Shown one piece after another: positions 8,181 through 23,138 of a DNA stretch of 64,000 bases (the stretch's first letter is position 1; each line of letters begins with the position of its first letter). The notes beneath the pieces were generated by a model that saw only the letters and a list, made by a program, of their open reading frames with translations, ran no database searches and was not told where the DNA came from. The DNA lies in contig SUTD01000002.1 in the NCBI GenBank assembly GCA_015063085.1, positions 62,001 through 126,000 on the forward strand, read 5' to 3'. The DNA is from Methanocorpusculum parvum (GTDB taxonomy: Archaea; Halobacteriota; Methanomicrobia; Methanomicrobiales; Methanocorpusculaceae). A program made the translations under genes and the position numbers.

Positions 8181-8399
8181 TCATCTCAGAGATAAAACCT
8201 CAACATTACTTCCAGGAGATGATTTCAAGCCCCTGACATCCTCACAGAAATCCTTCTCATGAAGAATTGCAGTATCGACCTTATCTATCAATTCTTCAAA
8301 GGGAAACAGAGGTCTTACTGAAGCTTGGGATATGGCAATGCAGCACCTGTTCAAGGAAGTTACCACTGTTTCAGTCAATAACAATTCCTGCAAAATCAC
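8181..8399 (-). CDS. possible small protein or gene remnant
   Basis: A GTG-started frame of 72 residues begins 18 bases after the stop of the Sll1717-type ATPase gene. The translation (around LNRCCIAISQASVRPLFPFE and ELIDKVDTAILHEKDFCEDV) has natural protein composition and predicted amphipathic helices. It has only a weak ribosome binding site (CAGG directly before the GTG) and no recognised family. It could be a small partner of the ATPase, a fragment of a decayed gene, or chance. Confidence 0.35.
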   Translation of the reverse strand: MILQELLLTETVVTSLNRCCIAISQASVRPLFPFEELIDKVDTAILHEKDFCEDVRGLKSSPGSNVEVLSLR

Positions 8400-8417
8400 C
8401 CTGTTTATAACAAACCC

Positions 8418-9977
8418 TCAATATTTATTTCCAATCCGTGCGACAGAATTAAACCGAGTATCAATATTATATGCTCTTGCTGTGGCAAAATGTAATGTTA
8501 TATTCATATCTGGATTAAATGATGACGTCTGGTTTCGGAACTTGAATGAATAATGATGCTTCCTACTGTCACTTTCCTCATAGTGTCCAATCGCCCCAAG
8601 ATCGTACAATAGGTTACATATATATAATAAGTCGTCCGGAGTAAAACACTGATATTTCACATCAGAATTTATTTTATCTAATAAATCTGAATATAAGAAA
8701 TTTTTCATCCTCATTGATGTAATTAATTCTAGAGCCAGGCTAATATTTTTTCTTTCCAAAAATCCTGCCATTCCATCTCTAATCTCATTGATGAAGGAAT
8801 TCACTGCATAGTTTGTGATTCCATCTTTGATTTTATCGCTTGTCAACTCCGATCCATCTAATACTGTTTCTTGAATGTGGTTCATCAATTGAATTATGTC
8901 TCTTGGTGTGTGTCGTGTCCAATTTAGCAGGTTTTTTAAGCTTTCGTACCTTGTGGTTGCCCCAGAATATGATTCTGGGAAATATTTTTCAAAAATATTT
9001 ATTTCATTTTCTTGTTTTAAAGATATTTTTGCACGTAAATTGATGAGTTTTACAATATTTGTAGTATACACATTATTTGCTGTTTGATACCAGTTTAATT
9101 TAATTGTTTTGTCATCAGCTATCTTCCCAATATTTGGTCCAGAAAGGCTGTTGAATATATCTGTTCTACAAAGAATTACGATTTTTATGTTTATTCCTGC
9201 AGCCTCAAACTTAGAATTCAAAGTATTAGCTGACATTATCAATGCTAATAATGAACTGAATTGAATTTCTTTATGTGAAACCTCCTGGAATAGGATATAA
9301 TCCAAATCATCAATTACAATAATATGTTGATTGGACATAGTAAGAGAGAAGCAAACGTCACTTAATGCTGAGAATAACTGTTCTCTTGAAAGTGTTTTAT
9401 CTCCAAGAACTCGTTTTCCGCTAATACTGCCACTAATAACTGGTGTTTTGATTTTTAGACAGAAATCATAAAGGGAATGCAGAATTTTTTGAACGGGCGT
9501 TACATCCATAATATTATTTACAGAGGAGTCTGGAAGTAAGCCATGTTTTCTGTAGACTTCTTCAACTTTTTCTAAATCAACACCCTCTAAAGTTGTTGAT
9601 ACGGTTTTGTCTTGAATTATACTGTTAAATGTTAATAACAATAGGAGAAACTGCCAATAATTTGAATAACGAATCTCTGAAGGTTCATCAGAGGCATAGA
9701 GTTTATCAAATTCGCTGTATGAGAAGTCATTTAAGGAATATAACTTTGTAAAGAGTTTGTTCTCTGGATTTTCAGACATTAACTGTAATTTTGTTCCGAT
9801 TGCTGATTTTCCAGAACCTTTCGATCCAAGAATAAGAAAATGTGAATCATCTAATATCTTATTGATATATCCATATGCATCCAGGAATCCATCATTTAAC
9901 AAGTAGGAATAGCGCATTCCTCGCTCATTTTCAGCCGCAGCTTTTCCAAAGTTTATTTTCCCAAAGTCAGATTCCAT
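8418..9977 (-). CDS. P-loop ATPase, Sll1717-like family
   Basis: This 519-residue protein begins with a short FGKAAAENE segment, then Walker A at residues 51-58 (GSKGSGKS) in the context FLILGSKGSGKSAIGTKL, and Walker B at about 219-226 (IIVIDDLD). The GxKGSGKSA motif, the N-terminal FG--AAENE--YLL segment and the overall length match the P-loop ATPase family typified by Sll1717, which is common in defence islands and near restriction or retron-like genes. A biochemical function is not established for most members. The C-terminal 200 residues are helical, with an RH-TPRDIIQLMNHIQ segment like the lid of other STAND/AAA proteins. Likely intracellular. No linked effector gene is clear apart from the small ORF downstream. 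Confidence 0.75.
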   Translation of the reverse strand: MESDFGKINFGKAAAENERGMRYSYLLNDGFLDAYGYINKILDDSHFLILGSKGSGKSAIGTKLQLMSENPENKLFTKLYSLNDFSYSEFDKLYASDEPSEIRYSNYWQFLLLLLTFNSIIQDKTVSTTLEGVDLEKVEEVYRKHGLLPDSSVNNIMDVTPVQKILHSLYDFCLKIKTPVISGSISGKRVLGDKTLSREQLFSALSDVCFSLTMSNQHIIVIDDLDYILFQEVSHKEIQFSSLLALIMSANTLNSKFEAAGINIKIVILCRTDIFNSLSGPNIGKIADDKTIKLNWYQTANNVYTTNIVKLINLRAKISLKQENEINIFEKYFPESYSGATTRYESLKNLLNWTRHTPRDIIQLMNHIQETVLDGSELTSDKIKDGITNYAVNSFINEIRDGMAGFLERKNISLALELITSMRMKNFLYSDLLDKINSDVKYQCFTPDDLLYICNLLYDLGAIGHYEESDSRKHHYSFKFRNQTSSFNPDMNITLHFATARAYNIDTRFNSVARIGNKY

Positions 9978-10250
9978 GTTAGTCTATAGCATCTATAATC
10001 ACATAATGATTTTGTAATGATTTTTGAGATTGAATACATTTTACAATTCAATAAGCGAGGCAATATCAAGCATATCGTTCTGTTACTGAGAGATTTATGC
10101 TATATTATTCTTCACAAAGCATTTCTCAAAGATCTGAAGAATTACTCATCCAAACAGAAAAAGATTCAATCTTTTATATAATTAGATTATCTTTCTAACT
10201 TAATTGAAGATAGCATAAAAATATTTGATTGAAAAATAGTGTGGTGGATC

Positions 10251-10637
10251 TTATGACACAAAGAGATAAACTTCATAGATTACACCGTTGTGCTCTATGT
10301 ATCGGTTTCCACCTCCAGTGTAGTATCCATAAGCTTCTCGAATTGCATACCCAGTTTCTTTGTCCACACATCCAGGACGAATGTAGTACTCCGAGAGTGG
10401 GCCTTGGTCGATATAGAATGATTCTGGAATGTTTCTGAGCACTTGGTATTTTTCATAGTCTTCTTCGGTGAGCTTGATAATTTCTGCATCCTCAGGAATT
10501 GGTTCATTTGGAACTATGAAATTGAACTCTTCATATGGGGGTGCATTTATTATTGCCAAAATCGGCAATGCTGCCATGATAAGTATGACAAGGATAGACG
10601 CACCAATAATTACACAGAGACTTTTTTTATTTGTCAT
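10251..10637 (-). CDS. membrane-anchored small protein
   Basis: This 128-residue protein has a charged start (MTNKKS) and one hydrophobic segment (LCVIIGASILVILIMAALPILAII), then a hydrophilic, probably extracellular domain with many tyrosines (EEDYEKYQVLRN, GYAIREAYGYYTGGG, HNGVIYEVYLFV). The hydrophobic segment lacks a clear cleavage site, so it probably acts as an anchor. It lies 75 bases downstream of the secreted metallopeptidase gene on the same strand and may be co-transcribed with it. No family recognised. The HNGVIYEVY ending faintly recalls the HNGVTYTLT segment of the secreted paralogue at 13668, which may mean a shared fold element. Confidence 0.6.
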   Translation of the reverse strand: MTNKKSLCVIIGASILVILIMAALPILAIINAPPYEEFNFIVPNEPIPEDAEIIKLTEEDYEKYQVLRNIPESFYIDQGPLSEYYIRPGCVDKETGYAIREAYGYYTGGGNRYIEHNGVIYEVYLFVS

Positions 10638-10712
10638 GTTTCACTAACTAACAATGATTAGTAATATTTGATAGATAAATACAATCCAGATTTATTCTCC
10701 ATCTTTTAATAA

Positions 10713-12089
10713 TTAAGCATGTAAACTTATCTCAACTTTACAATTCCTAATTATTCTTGCATTGTCATGTGTTGCGTCGCCGAGATATGAGGGTGATGCT
10801 GTTGAGGAAAATTCAAGTAAGTTACAGCCAGAACCAAGATATCTATCAATCATGACTGTATCATGAAAGATAGCGCCATCAAACCATTTGGTATAAGACT
10901 GTTCATGGCGCCCATCAAAACAATGTCCAATCTCATGAATAATACAATACTTTCTTGAATAGTCATTACCATTATATGAACTGATTCCATCAGCAACCAT
11001 CTGACACCATGCATATCTTCCTTTATAGTCATCTGTTCTTCCTTGGACATGACCTTTTGGACCAATTCTGTCATATCCTCCAAGATAGAGGCAAATATCA
11101 GCCCCAATGGAATCCAGATATGATTTTGGATAAACAGCTTCAAGAGCCACTATTGGATCAGTAAGGATGTCCGGATGTGAACTCAGTTGATTCTTTCTTG
11201 ATGAATCATATGCAATTACATTAAGAAAAACGCCAACATCTTCACGTCCAAATGATGTGACACTGTTTGCATCAGCAATATATGATTCAGATATGGATAC
11301 CCAATCACCACCATAAATCCCTAATGGATTTTCAGAGAAATAATTGTCAGTAACTACCAGAACATCCACTGTGACAAGAGAATTTGTTGCCCTTGAATCA
11401 TCATTTTTATTCAGGAATGATTCACGTTCCAGCATTTCTGATACGGTTGGTTCGGGCATACCACAGAAATCAATTGGTTCACTTGGCTGGAGAATGTCAT
11501 ATTCTGAATAAACAATATGCATTGGACTTTTGCCGTTTTTGGTCTCGATGTTTGAATCAATAACTGTAATTGTCAGATACTCTCCAGGATAGGAGATACT
11601 TCCAATTAACAGGTTCTTATCATTTACTGTGAAGACAACTTGTGAGTCCGTAACTCCTTCAATGGTTCCTAAGTAAGAATCAATACCATCATCAAGATTA
11701 TCCGGCATACGTTCCAGATTTACGGTGTATTCTTCACCGTAAAGAGTGATGTCAAATTTCAATGTTTCAGAACGTACTGGAATTGGGTTATCAAACGCCA
11801 ATACTGAGTAAATTTCCTCATCATATCCAATCTCTTTGGATGCTTTTTTTGCATTTGAAGATTCAGTGATGAACTCAGGAATGTTCAGAGAACTTTGTGT
11901 ATATGTTGATAGAGCACTACCTTCTGGACCTGCTTTACCATCGTACACAATTGTTTTCTCGGGAATGGTGAAGATTGGAACATTCACTTTATCCGTAGAT
12001 TCGGCACTAATAGGGTGAATACACACAACTGCTGCCAACAGCAGTATGCATACAGCAAAGATTTTGACTTTTGCAGATTTTGTTTTCAT
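10713..12089 (-). CDS. secreted metzincin-like zinc metallopeptidase
   Basis: This 458-residue protein has a Sec signal peptide (MKTKSAKVKIFAVCILLLAA ... ISAES). A roughly 220-residue propeptide-like region is followed by a catalytic domain with the zinc motif HEIGHCFDGRH (H385, E386, H389, H395), which fits HExxHxxxxxH with the third ligand at the metzincin spacing; the usual glycine is shifted by one. The N-terminal region (TLYGEEYTVNLERM, SYLGTIEGVTDSQVVFTVND) resembles propeptides of reprolysin-like peptidases. Expected location is extracellular or the cell surface. Its promoter carries the same TCTAGAACAC site as the divergent promoter at 13.5 kb, so it is probably in one regulon with the secreted paralogues and could process them; that is inference. 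Confidence 0.8.
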   Translation of the reverse strand: MKTKSAKVKIFAVCILLLAAVVCIHPISAESTDKVNVPIFTIPEKTIVYDGKAGPEGSALSTYTQSSLNIPEFITESSNAKKASKEIGYDEEIYSVLAFDNPIPVRSETLKFDITLYGEEYTVNLERMPDNLDDGIDSYLGTIEGVTDSQVVFTVNDKNLLIGSISYPGEYLTITVIDSNIETKNGKSPMHIVYSEYDILQPSEPIDFCGMPEPTVSEMLERESFLNKNDDSRATNSLVTVDVLVVTDNYFSENPLGIYGGDWVSISESYIADANSVTSFGREDVGVFLNVIAYDSSRKNQLSSHPDILTDPIVALEAVYPKSYLDSIGADICLYLGGYDRIGPKGHVQGRTDDYKGRYAWCQMVADGISSYNGNDYSRKYCIIHEIGHCFDGRHEQSYTKWFDGAIFHDTVMIDRYLGSGCNLLEFSSTASPSYLGDATHDNARIIRNCKVEISLHA

Positions 12090-12142
12090 CTTCCGCTCCT
12101 GAGTACCAAGTCATATGGACTGACACTCTGGAGAGATATTCT

Positions 12143-12193
12143 TGCAGGAAATGTATTAAAAAGAGTGAGCAAAGTCTAGAACACTAGGTGTTC
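12143..12193 (-). promoter_or_regulatory. TCTAGAACAC operator and TATA element of the metallopeptidase gene
   Basis: GAACAC TAG GTGTTC (12179-12193) is a perfect inverted repeat extended to TCTAGA on the left. On the minus strand TCTAGA is followed by CTTTGCTCACTCTTTTTAAT, which matches the order seen at 13565-13592 (TCTAGATGACGCTCAC, then TTAAATAA). The operator lies immediately upstream of the TATA-like sequence, a position typical of archaeal activators. It overlaps the 3' end of the regulator gene. Confidence 0.65.
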
Positions 12194-13013
12194 ATTCACA
12201 GACTGCTGTTTCTGATTCCAACCGGGTCATATACACCTCACAGAAACTAGGATTTACCGAGTAACAGGTTGTATTCTTATGATTCTCTACCAGAATCAAC
12301 CCCTCACCAACCATTTTATCCAGATGCCATCGAAGGGTTGTCATTGGAATTCCTGTTTCTTTGGATAGTTGTCTCTGAGATATGCCGGGATTATCGTGAA
12401 TTGTCTGAAAGATATTCATTCTGCTTTCATTTTCCAGAAGCTTCCATGCCTTCCTGTCTTTTTCTGTATGGTATGTATCATGTGTATAATAGTGTGCAAT
12501 ACTATCCTTGGTTTTGTAGATTTTCATCTCCTGATTCAATCTCTTTAGATTATATGATACCGAACCGCGTGAAAATCCGGTAGCATTGATAATTTCAGTC
12601 TGCTGAGCACCGGGATGTTTCTGGAGATATTCAAGGATAATCATATGCCTGCTATCAGTATTATCAGAAAGTTTACGCCTCGTGTAAAGGAAGAAGAGAT
12701 AGCCAGAGGTTATAAGACCAATAATGGTGGTGATTATGCCTATGATAATTACAATAGTTTCCGCAGCCCAAACTGGAACGGCCCCCACATTGAAGAAATT
12801 GATGATACGTGCAAGTATATATGGTATCGAAAACTGAAATTCTGTTATTTCAACAATAGGATTATCTGTATCATCAGAAATGAATGGTGAATCAACTGGT
12901 ATTACTGTATATCCAGATATTGGATAATGGACTACTTCATCTAAAGCTTGCACTGGGAGACAAGTAAAAGAAATAATGAGAATAATCAGGCAGATTGCCC
13001 AATATTTTGCCAT
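12192..13013 (-). CDS. membrane-anchored transcription regulator with two winged-helix domains
   Basis: This 273-residue protein has an N-terminal signal or TM segment (MAKYWAICLIILIISFTCLP), a short outer domain of about 60 residues and a second TM helix (AAETIVIIIGIITTIIGLIT), placing the C-terminus in the cytoplasm. Two winged helix-turn-helix domains follow: residues about 128-170 (HPGAQQTEIINATGFSRGSV) and about 200-255 (NPGISQRQLSKETGIPMTTL, RWHLDKMVGEGLI). This is a one-component membrane sensor/regulator layout known in Methanomicrobia. It follows the small secreted protein gene with a 12-base gap and so is transcribed from the divergent operator at 13533-13578. It is the obvious candidate to bind that site and the one at 12179-12193. 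Confidence 0.8.
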   Translation of the reverse strand: MAKYWAICLIILIISFTCLPVQALDEVVHYPISGYTVIPVDSPFISDDTDNPIVEITEFQFSIPYILARIINFFNVGAVPVWAAETIVIIIGIITTIIGLITSGYLFFLYTRRKLSDNTDSRHMIILEYLQKHPGAQQTEIINATGFSRGSVSYNLKRLNQEMKIYKTKDSIAHYYTHDTYHTEKDRKAWKLLENESRMNIFQTIHDNPGISQRQLSKETGIPMTTLRWHLDKMVGEGLILVENHKNTTCYSVNPSFCEVYMTRLESETAVCE

Positions 13014-13025
13014 CTTAATTCCTTA

Positions 13026-13505
13026 TTAATAACTATTAACCCCAAGACTAAATAACTGTATGCCCACAACATCAACACCAACCACGACAAAAATCCAATT
13101 GCCCTGTTTAAGTCCATGTGTGTTGATTATTTTCAGATGAATCAATCCATTTGGATTTGGGTTGTCATGCGTATCTGTAAATTCTTCAACAACAAGTCCT
13201 TCAGGATCCAGAATCTGTAATTTCAATGAATTATAATTCGGAGAAAGAGGCCATGATAATTGAAATTCTATCTCAGTTGAACCTGGGGTAACATAATGAT
13301 TAAAATATCGTGCCTGTCCCTGCATAACTGATGAAGATATAGAAGAACGCGGTTCAATCAAATCCTCTATGTTCAGCGGAAGGATAAGATATTCAGACTC
13401 AATTTTCTCGACTCCAAAACCATCTGCCGCAGAAGCTGGTAATACACAAATACAAAGCAGGAGAAAAACTCCAACAACATAACGCCATTTCATAACATAG
13501 CTCAT
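13026..13505 (-). CDS. secreted protein with PPC-like beta-sandwich
   Basis: This 159-residue protein has a Sec signal peptide (MKWRYVVGVFLLLCICVLPA, then ASA). The mature part resembles a bacterial pre-peptidase C-terminal or jelly-roll domain: QARYFNHYVTPGSTEIEFQL, SLKLQILDPEGLVVEEF, GNWIFVVVGVDVVG. That pattern (a vector strand, a 'ldPeG' turn and a G-W-F/V-V strand) suggests a small beta sandwich at the cell surface. It is the first gene of a two-gene unit with the membrane-anchored regulator and is transcribed from the divergent TCTAGAACA promoter. It could be the extracellular ligand or partner of the regulator, by neighbourhood only. Confidence 0.65.
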   Translation of the reverse strand: MSYVMKWRYVVGVFLLLCICVLPASAADGFGVEKIESEYLILPLNIEDLIEPRSSISSSVMQGQARYFNHYVTPGSTEIEFQLSWPLSPNYNSLKLQILDPEGLVVEEFTDTHDNPNPNGLIHLKIINTHGLKQGNWIFVVVGVDVVGIQLFSLGVNSY

Positions 13506-13532
13506 TTATCCGGAGGCATATATCAAATTTTT

Positions 13533-13578
13533 GAGCATCATCTAGAACACTTGCAGTTTCATGTTCTAGATGACGCTC
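13533..13578. promoter_or_regulatory. divergent operator, 17-bp inverted repeat
   Basis: Arms 13533-13549 (gagcatcatctagaaca) and 13562-13578 (tgttctagatgacgctc) pair at 16 of 17 positions across a 12-base spacer. On each side the arm is followed by a TATA-like element: ttaaataa at about 13586 for the plus-strand paralogue genes, and GATATATG at about 13517-13524 for the minus-strand secreted protein/regulator genes. The half-site recurs at 12175-12193. Confidence 0.75.
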
Positions 13579-13667
13579 ACATTTCTTAAATAAGTTTTTG
13601 AATCCATAATTTCTTGTGGGGTGTGAAGTCCCTCACATTAATTAACCACAAAAAAGAGGTGATAAAA

Positions 13668-14366
13668 ATGAAAAAAGTACCTACAAAAGTACTCAGTATC
13701 TTACTGTGTATTGGTCTGATTGCTGGATTAATTCCTGGAGTTTTTGCTACAGAACCAACAACACAGACAATTGAGCATAATGGCGTTACCTACACCCTGA
13801 CCATTACTTACTCAGAAGAAGGGCAGCAGATAGCAACAGTAACTGGAGGAGGAGTAACAACATCTGCTCATTTTGAAGATGACATGCTTATTCTCACTGA
13901 AACAAATCTTGTAACCAAGGAAACTACCACCACTGTAAAAGATTTGAATGAAGAATCTGAATTCACCACAGCATCATCAAATCATAATACCCGCGGGTAT
14001 TATTCAGAACAATCTCAGTATTTCAATGTTGGATATGAGGTTACAACCAGATCTGGTGTTGATTATTGGATGATTTGGAATAGTGATAATTTTGCTAAAG
14101 CGGTTAACACCCCTCCGGTTGATTTGAACTTACTTAAAGATTTTCAGGAAGCTGTAAACTCGTGCTGCAATTATGAGCAAGAATTCAATTATGAGGTTGG
14201 AAGTAACATCATATACACTGTTGTTAATGCATTAAGCGGAGTTAATGGAATTACTGCAATTGCATCCGTACTTGGCCTCTTTGGAATTCCACTTGCCGTA
14301 GCAACAATCTGGGATAATGCACAGAGAGCTGCTAATTTGGCAGATTTCCATTATGATCACATCTAA
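13668..14366 (+). CDS. secreted paralogue 1, bacteriocin-like architecture
   Basis: The start at 13668 (MKKVPTKVLSILLCIGLIAG) has AAAGAGGTGAT upstream; 232 residues. It has a Sec signal peptide cleaved after VFA. A beta-rich region of about 75 residues follows (IEHNGVTYTLTITYSEEGQQ, VTGGGVTTSAHFEDDMLILT), then a domain shared with the next two genes (YFNVGYEVTTRSGVDYWMIW, NSDNFAKAVNTPP, FQEAVNSC--YEQEF) and a Gly/Ala-rich hydrophobic C-terminus (VNALSGVNGITAIASVLGLF). This plan recalls large secreted bacteriocin precursors such as the geobacillin-26 type, from memory and unverified. First gene of a three-paralogue operon under the TCTAGAACA operator. Confidence 0.7.
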   Translation: MKKVPTKVLSILLCIGLIAGLIPGVFATEPTTQTIEHNGVTYTLTITYSEEGQQIATVTGGGVTTSAHFEDDMLILTETNLVTKETTTTVKDLNEESEFTTASSNHNTRGYYSEQSQYFNVGYEVTTRSGVDYWMIWNSDNFAKAVNTPPVDLNLLKDFQEAVNSCCNYEQEFNYEVGSNIIYTVVNALSGVNGITAIASVLGLFGIPLAVATIWDNAQRAANLADFHYDHI

Positions 14367-14379
14367 AAGGAGTATTATC

Positions 14380-15102
14380 ATGAAAATTAATATGAAAATT
14401 ATTGCCATCTCATTATGTGTATGTCTTCTCATGTCATTTGCAGCACCAGTTGTTGCATACGAGACAAACTCTGTTGAGTCATTCAGAATCGAAAATTCTG
14501 GAGATATTTATGATGTAACCATCTCCTACAATGCAAAGGGAGAAAGAATTGCCACAGTCGTAAATAATGGTGTCTCTACAACTGCAGTCTTCTCTCCAAG
14601 AGAAAACTCAGTACTGTTAACTGAAAAATCATTAATCACAGGAGAGATTAAAACCACCAGAGTTAGTGGCTCACCAGATGTATTTGGAATGGAAGCATCA
14701 ATCTCAGATATCAGAGAGACAGAATCTGCAAAGTATTTCCATGTAGGATATAACATCGCAGATGGATCACCATATTTCAGATGGTCGATTACAAACAGCA
14801 ATCAAAACATAAAAATGGCTGATGAGACACCATCAAATGCAAACTACTTAAGCAATTTCAAAGGAAATGTCATGTCCTGTGTTGCCTATGAAAAAATGTT
14901 CGATGCGGCAGTTGGCTCTACACTACCAACATCTATCATTAATGCTCTCCTCAGAGTAGCAGGGTTCTCTGCAGTCTTAGCAATTCTTTATGCTCTTGGA
15001 ATTGCAGAACATCCAGCTGTTACTGCTGCAAATGCTTGGGAATCTGCAAGTTCACATGCAGATAACGCGGATTACTATTACAATTTAGTAACTGAACTCT
15101 AA
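14380..15102 (+). CDS. secreted paralogue 2
   Basis: The start at 14380 (MKINMKIIAISLCVCLLMSF) has AAAAGGAG 8 bases upstream; 240 residues. It has a signal peptide ending near VVA. It repeats the plan of paralogue 1: a beta region (IYDVTISYNAKGERIATVVN, NGVSTTAVFSP, LLTEKSLITGEIKTTRV), the shared domain (KYFHVGYNIADGSPYFRWSI, NSNQNIKMADETPS, FKGNVMSCVAYEKMF) and a hydrophobic, Ala/Leu-rich end (INALLRVAGFSAVLAILYAL). The conserved Cys-x-x-Y/N-Y-E segment is kept. It starts 13 bases after paralogue 1, so they are co-transcribed. Function unknown. Confidence 0.7.
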   Translation: MKINMKIIAISLCVCLLMSFAAPVVAYETNSVESFRIENSGDIYDVTISYNAKGERIATVVNNGVSTTAVFSPRENSVLLTEKSLITGEIKTTRVSGSPDVFGMEASISDIRETESAKYFHVGYNIADGSPYFRWSITNSNQNIKMADETPSNANYLSNFKGNVMSCVAYEKMFDAAVGSTLPTSIINALLRVAGFSAVLAILYALGIAEHPAVTAANAWESASSHADNADYYYNLVTEL

Positions 15103-15117
15103 TCAAAGGTGATTGAT

Positions 15118-15546
15118 GTGATACAAACATCTAGTTTGAGAAAAGGGTTGGTTTGTCTAACCTTTTTCTTATTACTCCTCTGCATGATATCTCCAATTTC
15201 TGCAGAAGAAAGCTCTGATGTCATAGAACAGGAATCAAAGTACTTTACTGTAGGTTATGTTCTCTCAGAAAAAAGTGAAGTATCCTACTGGATGTTGTGG
15301 AACTCAGAGAATATGGCAAAGGTTGCTGATGTCCCTCCAGACAACCCACTTATTCTTGAGAGATTCAGAAATGCAGTGGATACCTGTCTCATCTACGAAA
15401 CAAAATTCAATAAGGGAATTGTTACTCTCATTGCAGGATGTCTCTCACCATTTATCTGGGCAGTAACTGTTCCAGAGATGATGGAATCATGGAAACTTGC
15501 AGAAAATGCAGCAGATACAGCAGATTATTACTTTGCACAACTGTAA
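15118..15546 (+). CDS. secreted paralogue 3, short form
   Basis: I prefer the GTG at 15118, about 6 bases after AAAGGTG; a GTG at 15109 is in frame. About 142 residues. It has a signal peptide (LVCLTFFLLLLCMISPISA) and then goes directly to the shared domain (KYFTVGYVLSEKSEVSYWML, WNSENMAKVADVPPD, FRNAVDTCLIYETKF), lacking the beta-rich region of the two larger paralogues. It ends in a helical tail (WKLAENAADTADYYFAQL) like the tails of the other two. It could be a minimal form of the same molecule or an immunity-like decoy. It starts 15 bases after paralogue 2. Confidence 0.65.
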   Translation: MIQTSSLRKGLVCLTFFLLLLCMISPISAEESSDVIEQESKYFTVGYVLSEKSEVSYWMLWNSENMAKVADVPPDNPLILERFRNAVDTCLIYETKFNKGIVTLIAGCLSPFIWAVTVPEMMESWKLAENAADTADYYFAQL

Positions 15547-15664
15547 CAGGAAATATTATCAACCTTATTTTTCATCTCTCTTTTTAATCATCCTATAAGT
15601 CAACATATCCTAGCCTCAGTCTCAATCATCTTTATCAGGTTCATCATCCAATCTACAATACAGA

Positions 15665-16396
15665 ATGAAACCCTATCTCTTCCCAAGCCGCAGACATTCC
15701 GGCAGAAAATGCCGTAAACACACCCCACACAGCATATCTGAAAGACTCTATGAAGCGCTCTGGGACAATACCTTAGAGCTTAGAAAGAAGGCAGGAATTA
15801 TGATTGGTATCTTAGGAATCATCCTGCCGCTTCTCGTAACTGTTTATGCATCAAACAGTGAGGGTCTGGATTCAGGTTTATTTACTATCTTCTTTGGCAC
15901 ACTTCTTATGGTATTCCTGGAGTATTTTGGTCTTTACATCTGCCTGTATCTGACACCAAAGTACGGGCTTTCATGGAATCTTAAAGAACTGGATGAAAAG
16001 AAACTTAGGATATTTTCCGAGGAAGGAAGTGAGGAGGACAGGGAAGAAATCTGGGACAATTTACTGGTAGAACAGGGAGCGAAGTACACTCTGTACTTTT
16101 CATTATCGGCTGTACTGGATGTAATTCTGTTCCTCACTATTGGTGTTCTTGCAGTATTCCTGCTGGAATTAATCGCACCCATAACATCTGGCATGTCTCT
16201 TGTGACAGTGATGCTGGTGTTTTCCTTTGCATTTAGTGCATGTGTTGCTGAGGCAGTAATCTGTGCCGTTGGTTACATTTTCTCTAGTGTATATCCAAAA
16301 ATGGCGAGTAGATTTAACAATATAATATATCTTTTAGCCACTGCAGCTCTCTCGATGGTATTCTGGGGGATGTGGTTTTGGAATATGTTTAGCTAA
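15665..16396 (+). CDS. multi-pass membrane protein downstream of the secreted paralogues
   Basis: This 243-residue protein has a basic N-terminus (SRRHSGRKCRKHTPHS) and about five hydrophobic segments: IMIGILGIILPLLVTVYAS, FTIFFGTLLMVFLEYFGLYI, LSAVLDVILFLTIGVLAVFL, TVMLVFSFAFSACVAEAVIC and IYLLATAALSMVFWGMWFW. An acidic cytoplasmic loop (EEGSEEDREEIWDN) lies between the second and third. No transporter signature is visible. It is on the same strand, 118 bases after the third secreted paralogue, so it may serve as immunity or export function for that cluster. That is inference from position; the family is unknown to me. Confidence 0.6.
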   Translation: MKPYLFPSRRHSGRKCRKHTPHSISERLYEALWDNTLELRKKAGIMIGILGIILPLLVTVYASNSEGLDSGLFTIFFGTLLMVFLEYFGLYICLYLTPKYGLSWNLKELDEKKLRIFSEEGSEEDREEIWDNLLVEQGAKYTLYFSLSAVLDVILFLTIGVLAVFLLELIAPITSGMSLVTVMLVFSFAFSACVAEAVICAVGYIFSSVYPKMASRFNNIIYLLATAALSMVFWGMWFWNMFS

Positions 16397-16483
16397 AACT
16401 CTGAGTGAATAAAACAGTCCGGGAAAATATGTGTCAAGATACATTATGACACATCTGATTCATGAAATAAAACAGATAAGGGA

Positions 16484-17047
16484 TTAATGAAGAAGAAAAT
16501 CCCTGAGTTCATGCACCCATTCGGGAGCATTCGATATGAACTCCTGCAGAATCTCTTTCTGCAAATCAACTCCACGAACAGAATCAAGAGCCTTCCCTGT
16601 AACTCTCTTGACCTCCTTTGTCAGAGTTACCGGATAGAGGAAAACACCAGATTCCTCCTCCTTTTTCAACCTGAACAAATTAGAAGATTCCTGATTCAGT
16701 AAATCTTTGCGCATCTTCTTATGCATCTCATTCTTCAGTGTATCAAGTGTAACACCATTGTCAGAATCAAGAACAACCTTTATCGGATACTCACGTTCAT
16801 ATGAGTAGATTATCCACATCTGATGAATACAGGTATTCCGATTCTCATCCTGCTTGAGAAGATATGAGGCGGTACAGCGAGACCGCAGAAAATTCTTGAT
16901 AGTAACACTTTCCCCAGATAAATCAGATGCACCGCAAATCTGACCCCAGTTTTTAGACACAACACTCTGATTCTCGGCGCCCAAAAGCAGTGATAAAAAT
17001 ATCAAATCATGTTGTCCTTCACAAAGGACAACGCGTTTCCTCCTCAT
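16484..17047 (-). CDS. TOPRIM-domain protein of a split OLD-like pair
   Basis: This 187-residue protein opens with a TOPRIM signature: VVLCEGQHDLIFLSLLL gives the catalytic Glu10 and Gly11 with Asp14, and VVLDSDNGVT gives the second acidic motif DxD (residues 94-96). TOPRIM nickase domains in OLD-family defence nucleases normally follow the ATPase domain in one chain; here the domain is a separate gene whose ATG overlaps the ATPase stop (TAATG). The C-terminal part (EVKRVTGKALDSVRGVDLQK) is helical. Probable role: metal-dependent DNA or RNA cleavage regulated by the ATPase. Related two-gene layouts include PARIS and other ATPase/TOPRIM systems; I cannot say which is closest. Confidence 0.7.
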   Translation of the reverse strand: MRRKRVVLCEGQHDLIFLSLLLGAENQSVVSKNWGQICGASDLSGESVTIKNFLRSRCTASYLLKQDENRNTCIHQMWIIYSYEREYPIKVVLDSDNGVTLDTLKNEMHKKMRKDLLNQESSNLFRLKKEEESGVFLYPVTLTKEVKRVTGKALDSVRGVDLQKEILQEFISNAPEWVHELRDFLLH

Positions 17048-18195
17048 TACGTACCTCGTAAATCCATCTTCATCTCAACCATCTCTGCAAATGCTTCAGA
17101 CGGAGTGTAGTTATAGAGTTCATGTTCATCCCTACGTTTTACAATACGGGTAATCTGGATTAAATCCCGCTCCTCCACACTTTCCTCTTCATCATACTGG
17201 GAATAGTTTGCAAATGCCTCAATCAAATCATAACTATGTGTTGTCAGAAACACCTGCACATTCAATTTCCTGGCAAGCAACATCAGATTCTCAACAAAAA
17301 CCTGAAGATATCCGGGATGCATGTGATTCTCCGGTTCCTCTATCAAGAGCACACCATCGCGGCACTGCCGAATTGTTGAGATGAGATTCAGGAGAATACT
17401 AAATCCCGTTCCATGGACAGTATATGGGAGGAAATATGTCTCATCATTCTCACGGTAAACCACCCCATCCTCCATCAGTCTCTCGACATTTGGTAACAGA
17501 TTATGTTCCTGGACAAACTTATCCAACTCAATCAACTCAAGCGGGTCAGCAGTTACCTGATAGAACAATTTATCAGAATTGTTGATGAAACGAATGTTTC
17601 CGACATTTGCATCTACGTTCTCACTAAACCCATATGACATGCGGCAGAACTGATAGAGGTATTCCTGTAAATCTTCAGGACTAATATCAGCTCCAGCAAA
17701 AATACTCTGTGAATCGGCAACAAGTTTCTCAGAGAACCCTTTATAGGGTGTTACATCTATTGATCGAAGATTACTATCCAATACAGAAAATGACACCATC
17801 CGGGATTTTATCAGATAGTCAATAAACTTCTTCTGGTAAAATGGAGATGGCGTGAACTTTGCATTGTGGAATAATACCAGATTTAATTTCTCAACAATCT
17901 TTTCTGAAAAATCAGCGGGCAAATCAGAGAGAGAGCATGAGATGAAAAAGTCATGATTATCAGCTGAAATAGATGCACGTTCAGCATGAACATTAATTCC
18001 ATACCTATTGAGATATCGACCCTGATTGAAGATAGTCGGAACTTCCTTTCCCGTCAAAACTGCATAAATTGCCTCAAGAATTGTGGACTTCCCGGAATTA
18101 TTTCTTCCAATAAGCAGATTAACCTGTTTTGGTTCATACCGCAAATGAGAAATGCCTCGAAAATTATTGATTTCAATCCAAGGAAGCAATGTCAT
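17047..18195 (-). CDS. OLD-like ABC/SMC-type ATPase (AAA15/21)
   Basis: This 382-residue protein begins WIEINNFRGISHLRY, typical of OLD/RecF-like ATPases, then has Walker A at about 30-38 (GRNNSGKST) with ILEAIYAVL. Late in the chain are Walker B (VLLIEEPENHMHPGYLQ) and the switch histidine region (VFLTTHSYDLIEAF). The region in between is helical and divergent, as usual. Such ATPases dimerise on DNA ends or sense invaders and control a TOPRIM nuclease, which here is the next gene. It is complete at its C-terminus and contains no nuclease of its own. The pair has its own AT-rich promoter region upstream. Confidence 0.8.
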   Translation of the reverse strand: MTLLPWIEINNFRGISHLRYEPKQVNLLIGRNNSGKSTILEAIYAVLTGKEVPTIFNQGRYLNRYGINVHAERASISADNHDFFISCSLSDLPADFSEKIVEKLNLVLFHNAKFTPSPFYQKKFIDYLIKSRMVSFSVLDSNLRSIDVTPYKGFSEKLVADSQSIFAGADISPEDLQEYLYQFCRMSYGFSENVDANVGNIRFINNSDKLFYQVTADPLELIELDKFVQEHNLLPNVERLMEDGVVYRENDETYFLPYTVHGTGFSILLNLISTIRQCRDGVLLIEEPENHMHPGYLQVFVENLMLLARKLNVQVFLTTHSYDLIEAFANYSQYDEEESVEERDLIQITRIVKRRDEHELYNYTPSEAFAEMVEMKMDLRGT

Positions 18196-18511
18196 AGATA
18201 TACTATATTTTTGTGCGGGAAGATTAATAATTGTTCTTTCCTGGAATAGGGATCTAAGAGGGACTATGATATTAAGGGAAAGACATTATATCATCCGTAT
18301 ATCTGTACCATATAACCTGATCATAAAACCATCCACCCAAAGATAGGCCACTTCAATAGAATAGATTTCATAGTGAAACATCAACAAGATACTACCACTA
18401 TATTTTTAATTACGACCAATTACAAAATTCCTTTTTATCTATTACTCTATCTTTAGACCATTTATCAAGTCAATCGTAGAGTATATAATTCATGAATATA
18501 AATTACTCATT
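18196..18511. other. AT-rich divergent promoter region
   Basis: No gene is supported. The stretch separates the minus-strand ATPase/TOPRIM pair from the plus-strand 3-TM gene and contains several A/T-rich TATA-like words (ctatatttttaatta near 18398, tatataattcatgaata near 18482), so it probably carries both promoters. Confidence 0.4.
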
Positions 18512-18976
18512 ATGTCAGGGAATAACATTCAGCTATCTCATGATGAGTTATCATCTCTTCACAAGGAGATTGATTTGATTCAAAATTGTATTACAAGAAT
18601 GGCCCAAAATTCATTCATGATAAGAGGATGGGCCATATCTATTGTTGTAATTACCTGGGCGATTATTGGAATTGTAGAGAGTTGGGGGTCTATTGCGTTA
18701 ATTCTGCTTCTTCTCCCGATATTAATGTTCTGGTACTTAGATGCATTTTTTCTTATGACTGAACGCAGATATCGAGATATGTATAAATCCATTCTTGAAA
18801 AACGACTGAAAGATAAGAACTTTGAGAACATGTACGATTTAAATCCAAATAATTTTAAAAATGGATTTATGGATTTGCCAAAATGTATGATTTCAAAAAC
18901 ATTGTGGCCATTTTACCTGTCTTTAATAGTGGTAGTTGTGGTTGCCATAACATTACAGTTCCTTCTCTGTATTTGA
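18512..18976 (+). CDS. small integral membrane protein of a defence-associated type
   Basis: This 154-residue protein has an N-terminal helix (HDELSSLHKEIDLIQNCITR, MAQNSF), then two close TM helices (GWAISIVVITWAIIGIV and IALILLLLPILMFWYLDAFF), a conserved-looking FLMTERRYRDMYKSI segment, a soluble stretch and a third TM helix (FYLSLIVVVVVAITLQFLLC). The layout 'RMA-NSF--+GWAI ... P-++FW-LD-++L--ER-+R-+Y' matches a widespread uncharacterised family that often sits in defence islands and resembles SLATT-type membrane effectors in outline. It may be a pore-type effector for a neighbour, but no partner is clear; genes on both sides run on the other strand. Confidence 0.55.
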   Translation: MSGNNIQLSHDELSSLHKEIDLIQNCITRMAQNSFMIRGWAISIVVITWAIIGIVESWGSIALILLLLPILMFWYLDAFFLMTERRYRDMYKSILEKRLKDKNFENMYDLNPNNFKNGFMDLPKCMISKTLWPFYLSLIVVVVVAITLQFLLCI

Positions 18977-19041
18977 ATTGGAGTTTAGTGGCAACAATTC
19001 TGAGGTAAAATAATTAGGTGATTGATGTCTGACCATCATAA

Positions 19042-21513
19042 TTAGGGAATGGCTGGACAGTTTTTCATCTTTCCCCTGATATTAGATAAATCTTTAATTA
19101 TATTGTCAGGTTCAATATCTAAGATGGGAATCATGTCTTCAATCTTGTAACCGAAATTAGCGTATGAACATTTTGTTTCAAAGCGATTATTGATTAACTT
19201 GAGATTTTCAAGGAAGTTTTGTCTACCAAAATTAATTTCAAGTACTAATTCATGTTTGTCCTTGTAGATATCTACAATTTTATTTTTAATTTCTTCAGCA
19301 TTTTTAGAATCTTGTTCAGTACAACACAGCAATGTGAGAATACGACATTGCATATCCCATGTATCCTTATTAACAAATTCTTTGAGTTTTGTTTCTTCAG
19401 AATACTCCTGGAAGAAGTTACGAACAGATTGGTATGTGTCATTAAGTTGATAAACACCTGATGAATCCTGTTTTGAACAGATAACAAGACATTTGAAATA
19501 GTTGTAGAGGGTATTAAACTCAATTGTTTTCTTATCTCCGGGTAATGAGACAGGATTACTGTTGTATTCTATACCTAAGCACTGTAATGATTTCTGCATA
19601 TTTTCAATGCAAGATGCCGCACACTGTTCTCTTTCTTCATAATTTTTGATTCCTGAGCAAAGCCGCTGCATCTGCGCAAGACTAAGATTCCTGTATCCTT
19701 GCTGGCTTTCCCGAAGAAACCGCGATGCATCTGCATCAGCAATGTGCAATTTGAAATACTCTTCAGCCTTATCAAAACACCCCAAACGGAGATTCAATAA
19801 TCCTAACAGATTGTATGTCTGATTTAATCCGCGCTCTCCAGTTAAGTTGCCTATTTTTTGATAGATATTGATACTTGTCTTACATAAGAATTTGGCTAAT
19901 CCCAGAATCTCTGCATACATATTTTTTCGGTTCGTTGCATAATCATTATCATCTGGGATTGGTGGAAGGTCGGGGAGCATAGTCATAATTATATGTGCCA
20001 TTGATCGAAGTGACGCGGCAAACATTAAACTTTGATCAGGTGACATAGCATCACATGAAACTTGTAATTTCAGTGAATCCAGGTTGTGTGAATATGCCTT
20101 AACTATCTTATCTTTTCCCTGTAATCTATAGAGTTGAGCCACTGCGAGATGTGCTTCTGCCTCCAGATTTGTGTCTCCAGCGGATTTTGAGCGTTCGATG
20201 GCAGTGATACCTTGTTTAATACCCCATTCCATCACTTTACTGTCAGATTTTCTTTGATAAAGTTTGTATGCCAGTTTTGCATCCTGATATGGTGCATTTG
20301 CGGAATCTACATGGTTATTCAAAGACCTCATCAAATACCATGAAGCAATATCGGTAACATCACTATCAAAATACTGCAGTATTTCTGCTGAAACCTTTTT
20401 ATCAATTTCTGGTGTAAGTTTTTCAGACCAGGATTTAATGATAGCTTCAGTATACTCATCGATAGTGTTACTTGTTGTCTTGGTTGCTGATGTTATTGAA
20501 TCAGTAATTTCTTTATTATCAGGACAGATACGAGAGAAGAGAGATTTGGCATACTCTGCAGTATCAGTTTGGATTAAGTATGCTGCATTATTCTTATTCT
20601 GATTACAACAGGTATGAAGTGTGTTGTACATATTATGGTATGATACATCTTTCCATTCCATAAGAGCAGGAGATGTGCTATATTTATTTACTATATCTGA
20701 GAAATATGCAGAATCTGATATGATATTATCACCACCCTTTTCAGAAGATGTATGTTTTATCCAATAAATTTTCTTTGGACAGGATTCTGGTTTTGAGAGA
20801 ACTTTGTATAAATCATATTCATCTCTCAAGCTATGTCCCATAACTACCCATGTATGGTTATGCAGGGCTTCAAGAAGTTTGATTTTGGGAGTTACTGATT
20901 CGCTTTGATGTTGAGAAAGCAATGTTACTATAGACGCTGAGGTATCATTACCGTCAGGGTCACAAAAGGATCCATGCAATTTAATCAGATAACCTTCATG
21001 ATAATCCATAGTTTCTGTCTTATTACCCGTAATATCTTTAGTAAATTTTTCAAAATCATAGTTTTTTATGAGACAATGTGTACTATCAATAGTTGTATTG
21101 TAAAGTATTTTGTAAGCATCTTCAATCAGGCCGTCAAAATTTGTAGATATGACAATGTTTCCCTGCTGAATAAGAGCAGCAAGCAAGTAGTGGATTACAT
21201 TTGGCTCCACAGAATATCCGTCAGCTCTTGCTGTTGCTGTATCTAAAACCTTAAGCGGGAGCAGACCATCTCTTTCTCCCATATGTTTTAACAGAATCTG
21301 GAAGAATAATTCCGGGCGTATTTTCTCTAATATCATATTTCTATCAAAGTATTTCAGAGATGATAATTGTTTAAGGCAATTGTCTTGCGGGAAAAGAGAC
21401 AAATTGGTTGGTGAACTATAGGAGATGCCGGCACCAACAAGGAAGATTACAGGCTTGTTAGAATTGGTTTCATCACACAGACAATTTTTGATATATTCAA
21501 AGTAGGACGACAT
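19042..21513 (-). CDS. SIR2-like NADase fused to TPR repeats
   Basis: This 823-residue protein has an N-terminal SIR2 domain at about residues 1-270: IFLVGAGISYS (nucleotide-binding GAG-S at 27-31), VISTNFDGLIEDAY (N125, D127) and YLIKLHGSF (H180). It then has VVMGHSLRDEY, as in SIR2-like prokaryotic defence proteins. From about residue 380 to the end it is helical with degenerate TPR-like repeats (EAHLAVAQLYRLQGKDKI, TYNLLGLLNLRLGCFDKAEE). SIR2 effectors deplete NAD+ on infection; the TPR part probably senses or oligomerises. No SLOG domain is seen, so it is not a classical ThsA. It lies just downstream of the decayed TIR gene on the same strand. Confidence 0.8.
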   Translation of the reverse strand: MSSYFEYIKNCLCDETNSNKPVIFLVGAGISYSSPTNLSLFPQDNCLKQLSSLKYFDRNMILEKIRPELFFQILLKHMGERDGLLPLKVLDTATARADGYSVEPNVIHYLLAALIQQGNIVISTNFDGLIEDAYKILYNTTIDSTHCLIKNYDFEKFTKDITGNKTETMDYHEGYLIKLHGSFCDPDGNDTSASIVTLLSQHQSESVTPKIKLLEALHNHTWVVMGHSLRDEYDLYKVLSKPESCPKKIYWIKHTSSEKGGDNIISDSAYFSDIVNKYSTSPALMEWKDVSYHNMYNTLHTCCNQNKNNAAYLIQTDTAEYAKSLFSRICPDNKEITDSITSATKTTSNTIDEYTEAIIKSWSEKLTPEIDKKVSAEILQYFDSDVTDIASWYLMRSLNNHVDSANAPYQDAKLAYKLYQRKSDSKVMEWGIKQGITAIERSKSAGDTNLEAEAHLAVAQLYRLQGKDKIVKAYSHNLDSLKLQVSCDAMSPDQSLMFAASLRSMAHIIMTMLPDLPPIPDDNDYATNRKNMYAEILGLAKFLCKTSINIYQKIGNLTGERGLNQTYNLLGLLNLRLGCFDKAEEYFKLHIADADASRFLRESQQGYRNLSLAQMQRLCSGIKNYEEREQCAASCIENMQKSLQCLGIEYNSNPVSLPGDKKTIEFNTLYNYFKCLVICSKQDSSGVYQLNDTYQSVRNFFQEYSEETKLKEFVNKDTWDMQCRILTLLCCTEQDSKNAEEIKNKIVDIYKDKHELVLEINFGRQNFLENLKLINNRFETKCSYANFGYKIEDMIPILDIEPDNIIKDLSNIRGKMKNCPAIP

Positions 21514-21629
21514 AATTACTAATAAATAGTAATTATAGATATATCTTGTGCCCTTGCCAACTTGTCTAATCTCTGTAATATATTCTAGAAGTAACTCGTA
21601 CTATTTGAAATATTGAATAAAATAGGTAT

Positions 21630-22036
21630 CTATCCTAATTGTTTAGTTGCGTTCACAACAGACTTTATGTTCCATTTACGATAATATCAGCCGCTTCTTT
21701 CACTCGTGTTGATGTTTTCTCATAACCTCAGGGTTCAATTGGTTTTTTTTTAATCCATTTTTTGCCAAATCAATCTCAATATTAATCCACTTGCTATATG
21801 TAGAATAAACTCCTGCTAATATTAGAACAACAGAAGCATGTTTCATTTGCTCATGTATTGCCCATCTCAATTTATTATCTGAACCAGTGACATGAAGTGG
21901 ATTATCTTTTGGAATAGAATAGTCCTCGTAAGAAAAGTCACAATCATTATCCAGAAGGTTAATTAACTTCTTATACGAATCTGAGTAAGCCCAAGAATAG
22001 CTAATAAATAAATTATAAGTTTCTTGGAGTGGACAT
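21630..22036 (-). pseudogene. decayed TIR-like (ThsB/MTH538-type) gene
   Basis: A good ribosome site (GGAG) and ATG at 22036 give MSTPR, but the frame then stops. One base further the frame reads TYNLFISYSWAYSDSYKKL, then YSIPKDNPL, WAIHEQMKHASVVLILAGVY and STYSKWINIEIDLAKNG. This is a clear ThsB-type TIR-like core with the conserved Glu of W-x-x-x-E. After a run of nine A the frame shifts to KPIEP, a TGA where Trp is expected, and GYEKTSTRVKEAADIIVN. A further one-base loss leads to WNIKSVVNATKQLG and the stop at 21630. So there are two or three indels (the A-run one may include a small deletion) and one nonsense change. It starts 23 bases after the caspase gene, evidently the same operon. 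Confidence 0.75.
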
Positions 22037-22058
22037 TCCTATATCTCCAATAGATATA

Positions 22059-23012
22059 TTAAATTCTGTTATTTTTTACCAATTTCCAGTAATGTTTACC
22101 AAGTGCTGTTAGGACACATGATTTGCTATTTATAGCAGCATAATACATATGTATCTCATCTTTTGGAATAAGAAGATTCACTCTATTGTAACGCTGAAGA
22201 GTTGAAAAGATTTTTGTATTCTTTTCAACTTTTATTTCTGAAGTAGGTTCATAAGAGGGATCCAATTGATATTCTGAATCTGGATCTGCAAAGTATTCTG
22301 TAAGCCTATATAATTCCTGAAGAGTTATTGGAGGTGTATTTTTTCTCAGTGATACAAAACTATGTACATTAGTTTTAAACATTGGTCTTTGATCCCATGG
22401 ACCAAGTGCCTGATCAATATATGCATACACACTTCCTGGAGTGACATCCCCAACAAGATTCATAGCACCACCATTTAATGCCTCAACTAACAATGAGGTA
22501 AACACCCCTTTCCCTCCTTTTTCCATTGAATATTCTTCAGGTTTACACGCGGTAAGGATGGTTGTTCCCTCATTTATCAATGAGAAATCAGTATTACATG
22601 CTATATTTCCAGCAGTACCAGCATGACAGCAATCAAGAATAATAATTTTATTCCTTGCTTTGGAGGTGGCTGCAATTGTCAAAATATCATGAATTGCCAA
22701 CCCATTATCACCACGTTTTACATCAGATGTTAGAAGATATCCCCCTGTGTTTTCAACATACCCATGCCCTGAAAAATATAATAATGTTGAATCTACTGCC
22801 CCATCAAAGAGCTTTTTTATTTTATCTTTCAACTCTTCTTTGGATAATTGAGTACCAGGATTATCAGCTATATATAATTCTGTTGAAAAGTTTGGTGTGC
22901 CATCACCATTTCTGGAGAGTACATTGTACATTGCTGAGGCATCATTTCCACACCCAAACAAACTATTGATATGTTCATAATAGTTAATACCAATGCACAA
23001 CGCTTTTTTCAT
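22059..23012 (-). CDS. caspase-like (C14) protease
   Basis: This 317-residue protein has a p20-like catalytic domain: KALCIGINYYEHINSLFGC, FSGHGYVEN (His83) and IIILDCCHAGTAGN (Cys129 as nucleophile), and then ILTACKPEEYSMEKGGKGVF, LLVEALNGGA. The C-terminal 110 residues form a separate domain seen in many archaeal and bacterial caspase-family proteins (STLQRYNRVNLLIPKD, MYYAAINSKSCVLTALGKHY). It lies between an NLR-like gene (127 bases upstream) and the decayed TIR gene (23 bases downstream). A caspase paired with a TIR protein has been reported, as I recall it, as type IV Thoeris, in which a TIR-made nucleotide activates the protease; here that input appears broken. Confidence 0.85.
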   Translation of the reverse strand: MKKALCIGINYYEHINSLFGCGNDASAMYNVLSRNGDGTPNFSTELYIADNPGTQLSKEELKDKIKKLFDGAVDSTLLYFSGHGYVENTGGYLLTSDVKRGDNGLAIHDILTIAATSKARNKIIILDCCHAGTAGNIACNTDFSLINEGTTILTACKPEEYSMEKGGKGVFTSLLVEALNGGAMNLVGDVTPGSVYAYIDQALGPWDQRPMFKTNVHSFVSLRKNTPPITLQELYRLTEYFADPDSEYQLDPSYEPTSEIKVEKNTKIFSTLQRYNRVNLLIPKDEIHMYYAAINSKSCVLTALGKHYWKLVKNNRI

Positions 23013-23138
23013 ATAATTAATAATATCATCATAATAATATATCTTTAACTATTCTATGTTAATATCTCATAAGTATTGTATTAAAAATTATTTAATATAT
23101 TTCTCATTTCAATCGCATCTAATTATTTATATTGGTAA

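Follow-up and report, generated by a model that had tools for sequence, protein, structure and literature searches.

The geoA-geoB-geoC operon of Methanocorpusculum parvum, on the + strand of the 64-kb stretch analyzed here (hereafter the window), encodes three probably secreted paralogs, of which GeoA and GeoB can be firmly assigned by sequence to the geobacillin-26 family of bacteriocins. We consider it probable that these two proteins are secreted, membrane-damaging archaeocins. The operon is part of an exchangeable cassette that also carries secP5 and a gene for a membrane-anchored regulator with two helix-turn-helix (HTH) domains, both divergent from it, an arrangement that is new here. 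The window belongs to a genome of 1.40 Mb in 36 contigs (79.8% complete), and it encodes archaeal EF-2 together with formylmethanofuran:tetrahydromethanopterin (H4MPT) formyltransferase, which identifies the host as an archaeon possessing an enzyme of methanogenesis. The operon lies inside an AT-rich island at window positions 4,000-27,000, where GC content is ~0.27-0.45 in 2-kb windows compared with 0.43-0.54 elsewhere in the window.

Family membership was judged with the NCBIfam geobacillin-26 family protein profile, NF035925, which has a curated cut-off of 40 bits. GeoB (76.6 bits) and GeoA (44.9 bits) exceed this cut-off, while GeoC (21.6 bits) falls below it and is therefore filed as a short relative, not a member. 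A sister archaeal copy in a related genome, G027, scores 101.6 bits, and alicyclobacillin 24 (Ali24), a proven bacteriocin, scores 124.2 bits. A sequence-only reading of this region had likened the proteins to geobacillin-26-type bacteriocins, and the profile search bears this resemblance out. The same reading had entertained a surface-protein family as the alternative; no Pfam model, surface and S-layer models included, exceeded its curated cut-off for any of the three proteins, and PADLOC returned no match for them.

The proposal of three tandem secreted paralogs at 13668-15546 also stands. The consecutive open reading frames (ORFs) geoA (13668-14366, 232 aa), geoB (14380-15102, 240 aa), and geoC (15109-15546, 145 aa, with a GTG start) are separated by only 13 and 6 bases, and in alignment GeoB and GeoC are 35% and 31% identical to GeoA. 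Searching the whole genome with GeoA recovered GeoB (E 3.2e-32) and GeoC (E 6.3e-16) and no fourth copy. Each protein begins with a hydrophobic segment ending in an A-x-A-like stretch (VFA, VVA, and ISA, respectively; ends read by eye). The motifs YF.VGY, W...NS, and F..AV..C..YE..F, already recognized as a shared domain in the sequence-only reading, are present, in variant form in GeoB, and a wider alignment identifies them as the core of a larger family. In the full-length GeoA and GeoB, the putative signal peptide is followed by a beta-rich region, this core, and a C-terminal hydrophobic segment (mean hydropathy 2.05 in 19-residue windows). GeoC retains the putative signal peptide and the core, and alignment confirms the earlier observation that it lacks the beta-rich region. 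Hydrophobic C-termini had been ascribed to the two larger proteins, which is correct for both, but GeoC has a shorter one as well.

An AlphaFold2 (AF2) model of GeoB, built from four sequences (mean predicted local distance difference test score [pLDDT] 62.4, predicted template modeling score [pTM] 0.47), predicts strands at residues 33-96 and 112-147, a helix at 154-179, two shorter helices in the hydrophobic part at 184-205, and a final helix at 212-238. At this modest confidence the model has the family trait of a helical core with beta elements, and the two hydrophobic helices, flanked by long ones, could insert into a membrane. The same layout, with strands first and then long helices on either side of a hydrophobic pair, has been described for Ali24 and geobacillin 26 (PMC13176240). 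A Foldseek search of the PDB with the model gave no match at E 0.001, and a profile search of PDB sequences gave nothing convincing (best E 0.073, LexA); we base no statement about pore-forming folds on these searches.

Within its order, the geobacillin-26 family is confined to the window's genus. NF035925 matches were found in 3 of 232 genomes of the order (2 above the cut-off), all in this one genus. A phylum sample yielded 4 of 392 genomes (2 above the cut-off, both of the window's genus), with two weak, partial archaeal matches outside the genus at 23.7 and 24.0 bits (G344 and G534, respectively). Matches occurred in 3 of 398 genomes in a sample from the phylum of Alicyclobacillus fastidiosus and in 22 of 398 from its class (18 above the cut-off). 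Of the 232 genomes of the order, a profile built from the archaeal proteins (A2) matched 7, every one from the window's genus, or 6 once G026 was dropped; the match in G026:C5 reflected only the signal peptide of a different secreted family. A tree was built from 20 full-length proteins, excluding L133 (an identical copy of L132) and all proteins shorter than 210 aa; in it the three archaeal proteins (GeoA, GeoB, and the G027 copy) lie on one side of a branch with support 100/99, forming one clade among the Bacillota subtypes. Their branches are long (0.8-1.1). A single archaeal clade with long branches points to fast divergence from one archaeal stock.

With tblastn, no phage matched GeoA, the G027 copy, or Ali24; among plasmids there was one match for the G027 copy, three for Ali24 (itself included), and none for GeoB. 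A plasmid gene of a soil Clostridioides difficile carries the same geobacillin-26 annotation. Searches by DNA pattern returned 49 stretches (A3) and 145 stretches (A4) of genome contigs, with no relative in the former and one, A. fastidiosus, in the latter, and 3 stretches of viral contigs (A2) with no relative. The open-access literature, covered as titles, beginnings of abstracts, and passages, held no archaeal member of the geobacillin-26 family, which is no proof of absence.

Evidence for exchange comes from the related genome G031 (locus L064), which is 98.8% identical to the window over 7107 bp on one side (15631-22731) and 94.7% identical on the other (8354-10188). Of the 5.4 kb that these flanks enclose in the window, no more than fragments of the secP5 and HTH genes can be aligned (short stretches, 74-79% DNA identity), and in G031 two unrelated secreted paralogs occupy the place of geoA-geoC. 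Near-identical flanks around different cargo thus place the geo operon in an exchanged cassette. In the window, secP5 (13026-13505, - strand) encodes a secreted protein of 159 aa and is followed by the regulator gene (12192-13013, - strand), whose 273-aa product has a signal sequence, a short outer part preceding a single membrane helix (read by eye), and two winged HTH domains, with PF13412 and PF24266 above cut-off. This pair recurs in related genomes adjoining varied secreted genes: relatives of a metalloprotease-like protein in L072-L074, L078, L079, L081, and L082, a geobacillin-26 family (Geo26) gene in L008 (G027), and other secreted proteins in L064 and L165.

The divergent intergenic region of the window (13506-13667) contains an inverted repeat with perfect 12-nt arms at 13538-13573, enclosed by imperfect 31-nt arms (13519-13549 and 13562-13592), which is a candidate operator of the operon. 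Long inverted repeats are found between regulator and effector in several such modules, another observation that is new here. Perfect arms of at least 12 nt occur in 5 of 15 module intergenic regions and of at least 15 nt in 4 (17, 26, 21, and 21 nt), compared with 5 and none, respectively, of 1482 control windows, a rough comparison because the module regions span 106-797 bp and the controls are fixed at 200 bp. The window's own repeat, at 12 nt, lies at the edge of the control range. One of the five control windows with arms of at least 12 nt (L080, start 6000) lies near the module region of L080 and would, if anything, inflate the control count. Separately, the motif TTGAGCA/TGCTCAA, located mostly at the ends of the inverted repeats, occurs 9 times in 4457 bp of module intergenic sequence (window, L072, L073, L074, and L081) against 0.75 expected; we give it little weight because it was chosen after inspection of the sequences and two of the five regions containing it are orthologous to each other.

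A small membrane protein gene commonly accompanies Geo26 genes elsewhere. In G027 a 64-aa ORF with two predicted helices lies 4 bases downstream, and small downstream membrane ORFs resembling each other are found at 64 bases in A. acidoterrestris and 61 bases in A. fastidiosus; most Bacillota loci that we fetched have a small membrane ORF 3' of the Geo26 gene too. Counting ORFs of 36-90 aa with at least one helix and at most 120 bases downstream, we found such an ORF behind 15 of the 18 full-length Geo26 genes examined beyond the window, the archaeal gene of G027 among them, and behind 10 of 171 control ORFs from these loci (Fisher p 3.7e-13); near relatives are counted apart, and the distance limit was chosen after the distances were seen. 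Requiring two helices changes the proportions to 10/18 versus 3/171, and a 30-base limit to 6/18 versus 4/171. Excluded from the 18 genes are L133 (identical to L132), the frameshifted or cut L126, L134, L135, L139, and L142, and the short forms. Among the positives, the ORF in L123, whose C-terminal half is hydrophilic, may be unrelated; the three genes lacking a downstream ORF are those in L125, L132, and L128, the last of which has one upstream only. The small ORFs fall into types that match the toxin subtype. Third codon positions vary most in the one-helix group and the Alicyclobacillus pair, with a slight excess in the L124 to L134 group, and none of ten small ORFs scanned had a Pfam family above cut-off. 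We propose that the one- or two-helix membrane protein of ~40-70 aa encoded after most single-copy Geo26 genes is an immunity protein. This candidate is new here; the word "immunity" has no occurrence in the available text of the alicyclobacillin paper, and the gene is not discussed there (PMC13176240).

In the window the position of the small ORF is occupied by geoC. Four genomes of the genus (G030, G031, G032, and G034) encode a GeoC-like protein that lacks a full-length partner. The gene in G030 adjoins an HTH gene 58% identical to the window regulator; those in G031, G032, and G034 lie near ribosomal protein or hypF-like genes (by eye). Short forms are also known among the Bacillota (L144-L148). 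Orphan proteins of this kind make more sense as decoys or immunity proteins than as toxins with no protection, and we propose that GeoC may be a decoy, an immunity protein, or a partner that protects the producer. As a side observation, a secreted protein of the GeoC type is kept in three related genomes (L162, 5006-5452; L163, 4360-4764; L164, 4869-5315), where it has no full-length partner and adjoins hypF-like and ribosomal protein genes.

Taken together, the profile match, the presence of proven Ali24 in the family, the single archaeal clade among Bacillota subtypes, the patchy distribution, the exchange of the cassette, the GeoB model, the small ORF, and the orphan GeoC-like proteins favor reading GeoA and GeoB as archaeocins, with their killing function transferred from homologs of low identity. 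In such a scheme both proteins would be exported by the Sec route and lose their signal peptides, and the targets of the mature forms would be the envelopes of close relatives. Binding there would fall to the conserved core, while the hydrophobic hairpin of the C-terminal part, set between two long helices, would insert into the membrane or perturb it; a mechanism of this kind has been proposed for geobacillin 26 and alicyclobacillin 24. SecP5 and the membrane-anchored two-HTH protein may respond to an extracellular signal and control the operon via the inverted repeat between them, and GeoC, in place of the small ORF, may protect the producer as decoy or partner.

Several observations weigh against this interpretation. 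GeoA clears the profile cut-off by 4.9 bits only and GeoC falls under it, and identity to proven members is ~20% (21% between GeoB and Ali24). The confidence of the structural model is lowest in the hydrophobic part. In the window, no membrane ORF of 36-90 aa lies within 120 bases downstream of geoA or geoB, so the immunity of this operon is a guess. The short Bacillota forms L144 and L145 are themselves accompanied by a small membrane ORF, an arrangement more in line with a toxin than with a decoy, and the secP5-HTH pair also adjoins secreted proteases, which are not necessarily weapons.

This last point invites the foremost alternative, a self-directed envelope or signaling system: the family would have been recruited in the archaeon for sensing or surface remodeling and not for killing, its secreted members being ligands or surface components whose state SecP5 and the HTH protein monitor. 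The recurrence of the pair beside varied secreted proteins, proteases included, is in keeping with it, and the N-terminal part (residues 93-255) of the cassette's metalloprotease-like protein, found in frame with HTH domains in G000:C24, suggests that such proteins are sensed. We nevertheless regard this alternative as unlikely, since the full-length relatives with data are bacteriocins, the family is confined, patchy, and fast-changing, and cargo is exchanged between near-identical flanks. Less probable still is that the same proteins, by the same mechanism, are toxins against bacteria or other organisms of the habitat and not against relatives. The family is shared with Bacillota, the sequence is silent on the target, and archaeal proteins that kill bacteria have been described (PMC12352652); however, Ali24 and geobacillin 26 are reported to act only on close relatives (PMC13176240, PMC8868475), and archaeal lipids and envelopes differ from bacterial ones. 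Finally, the sequence-only reading had noted a membrane protein next to the set, and one of 243 aa does follow (15665-16396, + strand), but the cassette break falls between it and geoC, so that it belongs to the conserved flank; although it is hydrophobic and encoded by the next gene on the same strand, 118 bases after geoC, we reject it as the operon's immunity protein, a role that is very improbable given that the 98.8% identical flank starts at 15631, before the gene, that the protein is 93% identical in G031 beside unrelated secreted proteins, and that it is absent from G027, which carries a Geo26 gene.

Two further genes lie on the - strand on the regulator side of the operon. The secreted metalloprotease-like protein (10713-12089), part of the exchanged cassette, has a HEIGH..H stretch (by eye) and no curated family above cut-off. 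Its N-terminal part also occurs as stand-alone secreted proteins of 229-278 aa, three of them consecutive in L083 (9117-13665), and the fusion to HTH domains mentioned above lies at 13116-14288 of G000:C24; we propose that it may be a shared pro- or sensor domain of effectors and regulators. A 128-aa membrane-anchored protein (10251-10637) has relatives in G030 and G031 beside like kinds of genes. In A. fastidiosus (L089, 6739-8702), a gene for a G1 glutamic endopeptidase is oriented divergently to the Geo26 gene, which recalls the protease near the window operon. The commonest other neighbor of the secP5-HTH unit is an unnamed secreted family with the motif YGDRL/YGERL..DGSL/DGTL (L064, 7183-8823 and 10319-11347; L165, 4317-5099; L065, 1075-2070; L068, 7970-8929), for which three members scanned had no Pfam or NCBIfam match. 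The signal region of the L165 member is 50% identical to that of GeoA over 36 residues. More widely, the island at 8418-26234 resembles a defense island, with a Sll1717-family P-loop ATPase, a SIR2-like protein, a caspase-like protein, an OLD/GajA-like ATPase with a small partner gene, and a large NTPase-like protein (by eye).

Our findings bear on how methanogens may compete. Secreted relatives of geobacillin 26 in a methane-making archaeon suggest that methanogens too may make such weapons, and a methanogen homolog of two studied bacteriocins offers a testable case of antagonism among these archaea. A candidate Geo26 immunity gene would be useful for the bacterial members as well, and narrow-spectrum agents against methanogens are of practical interest. 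More tentatively, GeoA and GeoB may stand for a chemical arsenal of methanogens, drawn from a toxin family that Bacillota also possess and carried in cassettes exchanged between strains, in which one type of membrane-bound sensor-regulator is kept while the cargo changes; immunity, through a tiny membrane protein or a GeoC-like decoy, may work in both domains.

Among known systems, halocin C8 has an immunity protein that derives from the same precursor as the toxin, which offers a parallel for GeoC. The archaeocins named in one review come from haloarchaea (halocins) and Sulfolobus (sulfolobicins); like GeoA and GeoB they are secreted archaeal proteins, thought to inhibit relatives, but their hosts are not methanogens (PMC4609331). 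A screen of archaeal genomes for BAGEL4 bacteriocins found homologs to be patchy, and a search of the available text of that study did not match the term "geobacillin 26" (PMC12352652). Geobacillin 26 of Geobacillus stearothermophilus, a class III bacteriocin listed in a table of PMC8868475, is the founding member of the profile that GeoA and GeoB exceed; it is likened to them through that profile and differs in its thermophilic bacterial host. Ali24 of A. acidoterrestris, likewise a class III bacteriocin, is secreted, has a narrow spectrum, and admits propidium iodide into treated cells; it has a 27-residue signal peptide, ~25% identity to geobacillin 26, and a predicted C-terminal membrane helix (PMC13176240). 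It belongs to the same NCBIfam family as the window proteins, is of similar length (238 aa compared with 232 for GeoA and 240 for GeoB), and shares with them beta elements, a helical core, and a C-terminal hydrophobic segment, as well as a signal peptide, which in the window proteins is putative. Unlike the operon in the window, Ali24, which is ~21% identical to GeoB, is encoded by a single plasmid gene followed by a two-helix ORF, whereas the window has three genes, a short paralog, and an archaeal-type divergent regulator, and lacks a small ORF of that kind.
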